DNA from: Robiginitomaculum sp. | Lineage (GTDB): Bacteria; Pseudomonadota; Alphaproteobacteria; Caulobacterales; Maricaulaceae | Assembly: GCA_021776565.1 (NCBI GenBank) | Contig: JAJFFQ010000016.1 | Span: 1 to 64,000, forward strand | Length of the DNA stretch: 64,000 nt | Direction: 5' to 3' | In this document: piece by piece, positions 54,114 through 56,413 of the stretch | How the letters are laid out: the number at the start of each line of letters is the position of its first letter | Position numbering within the stretch: the stretch's first letter is position 1 | Notes under the pieces: generated by a model | The model's input: only the letters and a program-made list of their open reading frames with translations | The model's database searches: none | Told to the model about the DNA's origin: nothing | Program-made: the position numbers and the translations under genes

Positions 54114-54401
54114 ATGTCTGTTGACGCAAAAACCGTGCGCAAAATTGCCCATCTGGCCCGCATTGAGGTGGCCGAAGAACGGCTTGCCCCGCTCGCCGAT
54201 GAACTCAATGGTATTTTGCACTGGATCGAACAATTGAACGAGGTGGATGTAGAGGGCATTGCCCCCATGGCGTCGGTAGAGGATGTTTCAACGCCGGTTC
54301 GCAAGGATGTGGTGAGCATTGACAATACCCGCGAAGATGTTCTGGCCAATGCGCCGCGCACAGAAGAAGGCTTTTTTGTTATGCCCAAGGCGGTTGAATA
54401 A
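54114..54401 (+). CDS. gatC: Asp-tRNA(Asn)/Glu-tRNA(Gln) amidotransferase subunit C
   Basis: A 95-residue small subunit that stabilises GatA in the amidotransferase. The sequence [20 protein letters not shown], the central [15 protein letters not shown] and C-terminal [20 protein letters not shown] are the family pattern. AGGA precedes the ATG. It overlaps gatA by one base (TAATG). Confidence 0.96.
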
Positions 54402-55873
54402 TGAGCACGCTAAATGAGCTGACCCTGGCGGGTGCAATCAGCGGCATGAAGAACAAGGATTTTTCATCGCGGGAACTCACCCAGACCCATCTGGATGCTA
54501 TTGCTGATGCCGATGCGCTGAATGCTTTTTTGGTGACCACCAAAGAAGCGGCACTGAACATGGCAGATGCTTCGGATGTACGGCGCGCCAGAGGCGATGT
54601 TGGCCCACTGGATGGTATCCCCCTGGGGATCAAGGATTTGTTTTGCACCAAGGGTACGCGCACTACGGCTGGCAGTAAAATTCTGGGTGAATTTACACCG
54701 ACTTATGAAAGCACCGTCAGTGCCAATTTATGGCGCGATGGCGCGGTGATGCTGGGCAAGTTGAACATGGATGAATTTGCCATGGGTTCGTCCAATGAGA
54801 ATTCGGCCTTTGGCCCGGTGGTTAACCCCTGGCGCGCCAAAGGTAAAACACAAAAACTGGTGCCGGGCGGCTCCTCTGGCGGCTCTGCGGCTGCCGTTAC
54901 CGCCGGGCTATGCCTTGGGGCCACGGCCACTGACACCGGCGGTTCGATCCGTCAACCGGCCAGTTTTACCGGCACGGTGGGCATTAAACCCACCTATGGA
55001 CGCTGCTCCCGGTGGGGTATCGTCGCCTTTGCCTCATCGCTGGATCAGGCTGGGCCAATTACCCGCACCGTCAAAGATGCCGCCATTATGCTCGGCTCCA
55101 TGGCCGGATATGACCCAAAGGATTCCACCTCGATCAAGGCCGAGGTCCCCGACTTTGCCGCGTCTTGCACGCGCTCGCTCAAAGGCTTGCGCATAGGTGT
55201 TCCAAAAGAATACCGGGTAGAAGGAATGCCCGCTGAGATCGAAAAACTTTGGGCCGATGGCATGAACTGGTTGCGCGCGGAAGGCTGTGAGATTGTTGAT
55301 GTCAGCCTGCCACACACTAAATACGCCCTGCCCGCTTATTATATTATTGCCCCGGCAGAAGCTTCATCGAACCTCGCCCGTTATGACGGCATGCGTTATG
55401 GCGTTCGTGTTGACGGAACTGATCTGACAGAAACTTACGAAAAATCACGCGGACAGGGATTTGGCGAAGAAGTGCGCCGCCGCATTATGATCGGTGCCTA
55501 TGTGCTCTCTGCCGGGTTCTATGATGCCTATTACATTCGCGCCCAAAAAGTGCGAGCGCGCATTGCCGAAGACTTCAAAAATGTCTTTGAGAGGTGCGAT
55601 GCGCTGCTCACCCCCACGGCACCAAGTGCCGCCTTTGGTATCGGATCACGCCTGAATGACCCGGTGCAAATGTATCTGAACGACATTTTCACGGTGACCG
55701 CCAACCTTGCCGGGTTGCCGGGCATCTCTGTTCCCGCCGCTCTGGATAGTTCCGGCTTGCCGCTCGGGCTACAGGTGATTGGCAAGGCGCTGGATGAAGA
55801 AACCTGCTTTGCAATTGGTGGTGCGTTAGAGCGCGCTGCTGATTTTAATGCCAAACCGGATAAGTGGTGGTGA
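54401..55873 (+). CDS. gatA: Asp/Glu-tRNA amidotransferase subunit A
   Basis: The glutaminase of the indirect pathway to Gln-tRNA and Asn-tRNA. The 490-residue amidase has Lys78 (LGIKDLF), cis-Ser158 (PGGSSGG) and nucleophile Ser182 ([10 protein letters not shown]). GatA-specific [20 protein letters not shown] and DGMRYGVR support the assignment over a general amidase. It follows gatC directly; gatB lies 540 bp downstream beyond the DUF559 insertion. Confidence 0.97.
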
Positions 55874-55875
55874 CG

Positions 55876-55929
55876 ACCCCCTCCGGGTGCTACGCACCCA
55901 CCTCCCCCATAAAGGGGGAGGATAAAAAG
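55876..55929 (+). repeat. REP-like hairpin repeat, direct copy 1
   Basis: accccctccgggtgctacgc..acctccccc-ata-aagggggaggat: a G/C-rich arm and a hairpin CCTCCCCC/GGGGGAGG. It is nearly identical to 56345-56397 and begins 2 bp after the gatA stop. Confidence 0.85.
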
Positions 55930-55943
55930 AGACGCAGCGTTAC

Positions 55944-56003
55944 TTTCCTCCCCCTTGATGGGGGAGGTGCCGCGCCAAATACTTTGGCGGGGCGGAGGGG
56001 GTG
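55944..56003 (-). repeat. REP-like hairpin repeat, inverted copy
   Basis: cctccccc-ttga-tgggggagg hairpin followed by tgccgcgccaaatactttggcggggcggagggggtgac. The tail itself holds a second hairpin (gccaaa-tac-tttggc). It is in the opposite orientation to the flanking copies at 55876 and 56345. Confidence 0.8.
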
Positions 56004-56381
56004 ACACATCGGTTAAAAAAACTGGCGCGGGCTATGCGCAAGAAAATGACGCCACAAGAAGTCAAATTATGGGTTCACCTGAAAACATTCAAAAAACAAG
56101 GTCATCATTTTCGTCGCCAAGCGCCTTTTCAGAACTACATCCTTGATTTTGTATGTTATTTTTCAAGATTGGTGATTGAAATTGATGGTGGGCAACATAA
56201 TGAAGAAAAGCATCAGAAACGGGATAATTTGCGTGATAAAATTCTCCAATCCGAAGGATTTACGGTTTTGAGATTCTGGAATAATGAAGTCGACCATAAT
56301 ATCGATGGCGTGCTGACCAAAATCAACGAAAACCTTATTACAGTACCCCCTCCTGGTGCTTCGCACCCACCTCCCCCATAA
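56001..56381 (+). CDS. DUF559 (Vsr-like PD-(D/E)xK) endonuclease family protein
   Basis: A 126-residue protein. The N-terminal helix (MRKKMTPQEVKLWVHLKTFK) and the nuclease-type core FRRQAPFQNYILDFVCY with EIDGGQH match DUF559, a family with the very-short-patch-repair fold. The acidic pair Asp of ILDFV and Glu/Asp of IEIDG are in place. A GTG start (56001) and the stop (56379-56381) both lie in repeat sequence, and the tail TVPPPGASHPPPP is translated repeat. Met12 (56034) is an alternative start. The activity and target are unknown. Confidence 0.8.
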   Translation: MTHRLKKLARAMRKKMTPQEVKLWVHLKTFKKQGHHFRRQAPFQNYILDFVCYFSRLVIEIDGGQHNEEKHQKRDNLRDKILQSEGFTVLRFWNNEVDHNIDGVLTKINENLITVPPPGASHPPPP

Positions 56382-56397
56382 AGGGGGAGGATTAAAA
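56345..56397 (+). repeat. REP-like hairpin repeat, direct copy 2
   Basis: accccctcctggtgcttcgcac.. with the hairpin cctccccc-ata-aagggggagg. The loop contains the TAA stop codon of the DUF559 gene. Nearly identical to 55876-55929 (a few mismatches). It ends 17 bp before the gatB start. Confidence 0.85.
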
Positions 56398-56413
56398 AAG
56401 AAGAGAAAAAGTA

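Follow-up and report, generated by a model that had tools for sequence, protein, structure and literature searches.

Known REPINs are inverted pairs of REP sequences that are mobilised by RAYT transposases. In the REPIN-RAYT system the end of the REP is defined by a GTAG (or CGTC) tag (PMC3733652). A separate description exists for the BoxC element, also known as the PIT element and as the TM_ECO intrastrand-triplex motif, which is present in 23 copies in E. coli (Holder et al. 2015, PMC4666352). Triplex formation by TM_ECO has been demonstrated in vitro and the motif has been linked to genome instability by the same authors, who found no mobility gene near it and whose paper mentions neither DUF559 nor endonucleases (PMC4666352). 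Hundreds of bacterial genomes, that of E. coli K-12 among them, contain BoxC/PIT/TM repeats, for which neither a mobilising gene nor a function was known. Two groups of enzymes are also relevant here. The EDxHD enzymes are a recognised family of homing endonucleases (PMC3943268), and the DUF559-type protein VsrA of Caulobacter triggers an SOS response once a methylase is lost (PMC12907096). A search of the literature outside subscription papers found no publication that links DUF559 to REPs or to triplex repeats.

The DNA analysed here (the window) is a 64,000-nucleotide stretch of a Robiginitomaculum sp. contig that contains a DUF559 gene (PF04480; 56001..56381, forward strand) with a GTG start, predicted to encode a Vsr-fold nuclease of 126 amino acids. 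The left neighbour is gatA (54401..55873, forward strand), an amidase gene assigned by profile match (PF01425), and the right neighbour is gatB (PF02934 and PF02637; 56414..57892, forward strand). The initial annotation had placed the DUF559 gene between inverted copies of one repeat in a unit that splits gatA from gatB, and this arrangement is confirmed with three repeat copies rather than two. Repeat R1 (55876..55932, reverse strand) reads tail, linker, hairpin, with the hairpin at 55901–55921. Repeat R2 (55946..56003, forward strand) carries a hairpin at 55947–55967 followed by a covarying linker hairpin and a gene-facing G-rich tail, CGGAGGGGG, and repeat R3 (56345..56401, reverse strand), which also has a gene-facing tail, carries its hairpin at 56370–56390. 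R2 is in the opposite orientation to R1 and R3, and R1 and R2 form a REPIN-like pair with tails outward. In all three copies CCTCCCCC and GGGGGAGG pair perfectly as a hairpin, a pattern that has only these three matches in the 64-kb window, all at the gatA-gatB locus, and three matches were reached in 0 of 100 shuffles. As single strands, R1, R2 and R3 fold far better than shuffled DNA (z-scores of -4.4, -6.2 and -3.7 respectively).

The GTG start of the DUF559 gene (56001–56003) is the end of R2 and its TAA stop (56379–56381) lies inside the R3 loop ATAAA, as had been noted from the sequence, and the final eleven residues of the protein, PPPGASHPPPP, are indeed R3 in translation. The provision of start and stop codons by the repeats is not general, and is regarded as an incidental, local accident because the ORF of other DUF559 members often ends ahead of the right repeat. 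The host genome encodes only one further DUF559 gene, on another contig (C28:22857-23180), which is bracketed by inverted copies of a repeat akin to, but distinct from, that of the window and whose protein tail is also translated repeat. A Shine-Dalgarno-like GGAGG derived from the G-rich repeat tail is found upstream of the DUF559 start at both loci of the genome (window 55993–56003; L006). Genome-wide repeat counts were made by pattern searches, in which the exact variant of the window repeat had no occurrence elsewhere in the genome and the looser hairpin form was found 23 times, compared with once for a reversed-pattern control. The only neighbouring pair among these 23 hairpins that is spaced at a gene-sized distance (200–1500 bp) brackets the window DUF559 gene; the repeats around the second DUF559 gene are variants missed by the exact pattern.

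The window ORF scores 128.1 bits against PF04480 (cut-off 20.6), and the AF2 model of its product has a pLDDT of 90.6. The fold of the model matches NGO0050 of N. gonorrhoeae (PDB 3hrl; Z 14.5), the catalytic domain of I-Bth0305I (3r3p; Z 11.5) and Vsr (1cw0; Z 10.2), and the link to I-Bth0305I was also obtained from a sequence profile (E 1e-4). The alignment-invariant residues D49, E60, D62, H66 and D75 are intact in the window protein. NGO0050 and E. coli YcjD are both uncharacterised DUF559 members. In E. coli K-12, ycjD (1351407-1351760; NC_000913.3, L296 1720-2300) is the DUF559 gene located between sapF and fabI. An inverted repeat upstream of ycjD ends at its GTG start, and a BoxC/TM copy lies approximately 170 bp downstream, before fabI.

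In the repeat unit a hairpin is followed by TG, then by another small hairpin and finally by a G-rich tail. The sequence of the second, or linker, hairpin is free to vary with its pairing kept; across 82 distinct linkers the outer pairs are 91% complementary, compared with 51% when the 3' ends are re-dealt. The tail mirrors the purine arm of the first hairpin. When G is matched over G, and A or T over A, 369 of approximately 430 perfect hairpins have a tail on one side that fits exactly as a third strand; in a control that exchanged tails among different stems the share was only 14.5%. In R1 to R3 of the window, the GGGGGAGG stem and the GGAGGGGG tail supply a pyrimidine arm, a purine arm and a mirroring purine third strand. 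The covariation of stem with tail, together with that of the linker, is strongly supported and favours a folded form, for whose predicted triplex it is indirect evidence. Rfam returned no real match for the repeat, which is nevertheless already known as the BoxC, PIT or TM_ECO element. Two classes were distinguished by the presence of AGA in the purine arm (GGGAGAGGG, GGGAGAAGG) or its absence (GGGGGAGG, GGGGGAAGG). Repeats of the AGA class fit the TM_ECO consensus CCCTCNCCC-N3-6-GGGNGAGGG-N3-GGGNGAGGG; the CCTCCCCC class of the window has the same stem and mirror-tail design, although the letter consensus of TM_ECO fits the AGA class only. Of the undescribed REP-associated nuclease element proposed in the initial annotation, the nuclease association stands, whereas the repeat itself had been described before (PMC4666352).

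DUF559 is present in 73 of the 119 genomes of the same family. Among the 130 family genes with full flanks, 124 (95%) are accompanied by a hairpin no more than 260 bp away on one flank or both, compared with 4.0% of random positions in the same loci, and 71 have a hairpin on both sides, compared with 0% of random positions. A broader set of 80 named loci from Pseudomonadota, Planctomycetota, Chloroflexota, Omnitrophota and other phyla consists of best-scoring hits to a DUF559 alignment whose members are mostly repeat-flanked. In these loci, which favour the repeat-flanked clade because of how they were searched for and selected, the left and right flanks form an inverted repeat with each other in 57 of 80 cases (56 of 79 without L112, which has an N run) and at 4 of 1197 random positions drawn from all DNA of the loci, intergenic or not. 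Among 75 named genes, 46 (61%) are flanked by hairpins both upstream and downstream, compared with 0.49% of random positions. Up to 250 bp from the gene, the named loci contain 3.5–4.1 hairpins per kb; more than 500 bp away the density is mostly 0.1–0.3 per kb. Of 29 DUF559 genes sampled across the class, 25 have a hairpin on any side, and none was found beside the 25 true Vsr genes of the same sample. Where pairs of repeats bracket DUF559, both tails face the gene in 57 of 73 cases, and neighbouring pairs with no gene between them are mostly tails-out. The association of DUF559 with the repeat is strongly supported by these counts.

A dependence of the repeats on RAYTs was rejected, since Y1 transposase genes are rare in the family (22 of 119 genomes) and no such hairpins occur beside them at 7 loci. 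Several contigs labelled as viral (L147-L166, L173) carry a DUF559 gene that these repeats flank on one side or on both, and repeats are absent beside distant DUF559-like genes on phage contigs. In two Legionella loci (L072, L099) DUF559 lies between long inverted repeats whose CCCTCTCCC/GGGAGAGGG hairpin, with a loop of approximately 40 nt, was missed by the hairpin finder; in a third Legionella locus of the same clade (L094) the scan detected no repeat.

The repeat class changes 7 times on a tree built from 131 DUF559 domains of the family, compared with a mean of 26.6 changes in within-genome shuffles (minimum 16; 0 of 500 as low). The broad set gave 12 changes against 30.1, a comparison in which host relatedness is uncontrolled because the shuffles were global. 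The upstream and downstream arms of the same gene are also more alike than the arms of different genes (0.54 vs 0.34, p = 2e-4). At the gatA-gatB junction, four genomes (G000, G053, G023, G089) carry the repeat without AGA and one DUF559 lineage, and two (G128, G126) carry AGA-type repeats and another DUF559 lineage, which is decayed in G127 and G006. Lineage specificity is strongly supported by these comparisons, with the repeat type following the nuclease tree and not the host. The co-evolution of repeat and nuclease suggested in the initial annotation gains support, as even inside single genomes the type of repeat goes with the lineage of its nuclease. DUF559 genes are flanked by repeats far more often than random positions and control genes, as had been anticipated, but the variant belongs to the nuclease lineage; a repeat variant proper to each host is rejected on the basis of 20 genomes that carry both classes, sorted by nuclease lineage.

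Relatives with an empty gatA-gatB junction (13–23 bp), a comparison proposed in the initial annotation, do exist (G063, G035, G073). In G104 and G045 a lone repeat occupies the junction, and G125 has an apparent right-arm remnant there. The insertion is common to at least four species of the genus. From these junction states it follows that the window insertion is old, shared and sometimes lost, and no readable target-site duplication was seen at the site. The gatA-gatB gap of five genomes of genus g1 (G128, G126, G127, G089, G006; L235, L237, L240-L243) contains an extra open stretch for a small hydrophobic protein beside the DUF559 gene or its remnant. A similar stretch with repeat remains, and with no DUF559 match, is found in the gap of G114.

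A sign of movement, whose absence from relatives would have told against the initial annotation, comes from a relative with a complete genome (G026), in which two 672-bp units, each composed of a repeat pair, a DUF559 gene and a second repeat pair, are 98.8% identical and lie at unrelated sites on opposite strands. Similarity between the two copies stops close to the outer tails CCCCTCA...TGAGGGG, the flanking repeat pairs form direct repeats of approximately 120 bp, and no target-site duplication was seen. This duplication is a clear indication of recent movement of the whole cassette. At site A, the position of the cassette is occupied in the close relatives G123 and G076 by one repeat pair, a different one, and by no pair in more distant relatives; in G026 the pair appears to have been replaced and not simply interrupted, at this one site. 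At the other site the cassette is present in G106 and a lone pair in G099. These states fit cassettes that land at repeat pairs, either through nuclease-driven repair or through plain recombination. Across the genomes, DUF559 presence is patchy, with decayed copies and several lineages per genome. Repeat pairs in the genus of L037 (4744-5415) and in L186 have unlike ends, CCCTCTCCC with the tail GGGTGAGGGG and CCTTCTCCC with GGATGAGGGG, which resemble the left and right ends of a transposon.

The number of dispersed hairpins per genome, after exact local subtraction, has a median of 17 with DUF559 and 5 without (p = 1.2e-4; within genus p = 0.022). This link is gone when four hairpins are subtracted per gene, and its type-specific form is not significant (p = 0.15). 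Genome-wide abundance was downgraded as proof of a dependence of the repeats on DUF559 for these reasons, and leans only weakly in that direction. Most hairpins (2824 of 3065) are away from any DUF559 gene. Three family genomes without a detected DUF559 gene are rich in repeats, with 58–125 hairpins (G118, G010 and G076; 125 in G118); in these, either the enzyme was lost or missed, or the repeats are maintained by something else.

The explanation preferred here, to which about an even chance is given, is that DUF559 and the BoxC/PIT-type repeat form one mobile system in which the cognate repeat would be cut and would spread by break repair in a homing-like manner. The nuclease would recognise its own repeat variant, probably in a folded form in which hairpin and linker hairpin are joined by the G-rich tail as a third strand in the hairpin groove, and would cut at this cognate repeat. 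Repair of the break from another copy would spread the repeat, and would copy the gene too where the template is a repeat-nuclease-repeat cassette. Repeat pairs would act as landing sites, as in homing, and the gatA-gatB unit would be an old copy. The sequence itself shows the association, its dependence on nuclease lineage, the covariation of the folded form and the occurrence of the entire cassette twice in G026, whereas recognition, cutting and break-repair copying by DUF559 are inferred. Homing alone gives no account of how repeats reach repeat-free sites, and the replacement of a lone pair comes from one site only. The main rival, which is possible but doubtful, is a RAYT-like nuclease that mobilises folded repeat pairs in trans as small single-stranded elements, by excision or copying, its own gene being normally immobile like a REP-flanked RAYT gene. 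The REPIN-RAYT layout of few enzyme genes and many dispersed repeats, as seen in the 2824 hairpins away from DUF559, agrees with it, as do the lone repeat pairs where relatives have none, the conserved folded structure and the vertical retention of the gatA-gatB copy in several species. It is countered by the enzyme itself, which is no HUH transposase and has its nearest folds in NGO0050, a homing endonuclease and Vsr, by the duplication in G026 of the gene together with its repeats, and by the scarcity in the family of Y1 transposases, the known REP mobilisers, with no hairpins at the 7 loci analysed.

A domesticated nuclease of repair or genome maintenance would need no mobility if it is retained next to the repeats because it acts on their unusual DNA structures or on mismatches of the Vsr type. 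The Vsr-like fold, the SOS response triggered by Caulobacter VsrA on methylase loss (PMC12907096) and the ycjD-region DNA, which 4700 of 5426 complete E. coli genomes carry, mostly at one place, speak for such a role, and no recent insertion polymorphism of ycjD was found in E. coli genomes at the level examined. It is judged unlikely, as true Vsr genes have no such repeats and the patchy presence, the decayed copies, the several lineages per genome and the two near-identical cassettes at unrelated sites stand against it. An association could also arise passively if foreign genes tend to land at the repeats, which would be recombination hot spots, insulators or terminators, and DUF559 is often among the genes caught there. 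This would accord with the widespread repeats without DUF559 and with the tie of the motif to genome instability (Holder et al., PMC4666352). A passive association is improbable and largely refuted by the lineage specificity, since repeat type tracks the nuclease inside single genomes; the tails-in orientation, the lack of repeats at other small nuclease and transposase genes, and the DUF559 gene within the only 200–1500 bp pair among the 23 hairpins of the host genome also stand against it. The slightest chance of all is given to plain homologous recombination between repeats, with no part for the nuclease. The approximately 120-bp direct repeats in G026 and the lone pair at the same point in relatives would suit this process, which leaves unexplained why DUF559 rather than other genes is carried and why the repeat type is lineage-specific across phyla.

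In the broadest reading, DUF559 proteins would be the dedicated spreading enzymes of the triplex-forming BoxC/PIT repeats across bacteria, with a mobilisation of REPs unrelated to RAYTs by an enzyme that may read an intrastrand triplex or a hairpin; this claim appears about evenly balanced between true and false. DUF559 is the first candidate for the spreader of these long-known, unexplained repeats, and a lineage-matched nuclease partner turns the open question into a direct test on one gene, K-12 ycjD or a relative. If true, a second, unrelated enzyme class for the spread of REPs in bacteria would stand beside the one known way. The stem-tail covariation also offers comparative evidence for selection of a triplex-capable form in living cells, which footprinting had not shown.

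Compared with the published BoxC/PIT/TM motif, the nuclease link, the lineage-specific classes and the covarying linker hairpin are added here. The ycjD gene of K-12 resembles the window gene in its GTG start, where an inverted repeat ends, and in the nearby BoxC, and differs in that it is not bracketed by two full repeats. Vsr mismatch endonucleases share the fold, but belong to a separate Pfam family (PF03852) and had the repeats at 0 of 25 genes. The EDxHD homing endonuclease I-Bth0305I is the second-best fold match and has a similar line-up of invariant acidic and His residues; the DUF559 gene likewise lies inside its presumed target, with lone-target sites in relatives. Unlike I-Bth0305I, DUF559 is without an intron, an intein or an added DNA-binding domain, and its target would be a multi-copy folding repeat and not one conserved gene. 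With REPIN-RAYT systems the element shares short folding repeats in dispersed inverted pairs of many copies, few enzyme genes each flanked by its own variant, and an enzyme and repeat that diversify together. It differs in the enzyme, a Vsr-fold DUF559 nuclease with no Y1/HUH transposase in the element, in the repeat end, which is a G-rich third-strand tail (CGGAGGGGG, GGGTGAGGGG) with no GTAG or CGTC tag, and in the duplication of the whole cassette. The DUF559 element is not a RAYT system, but it would work like a RAYT or a homing system.
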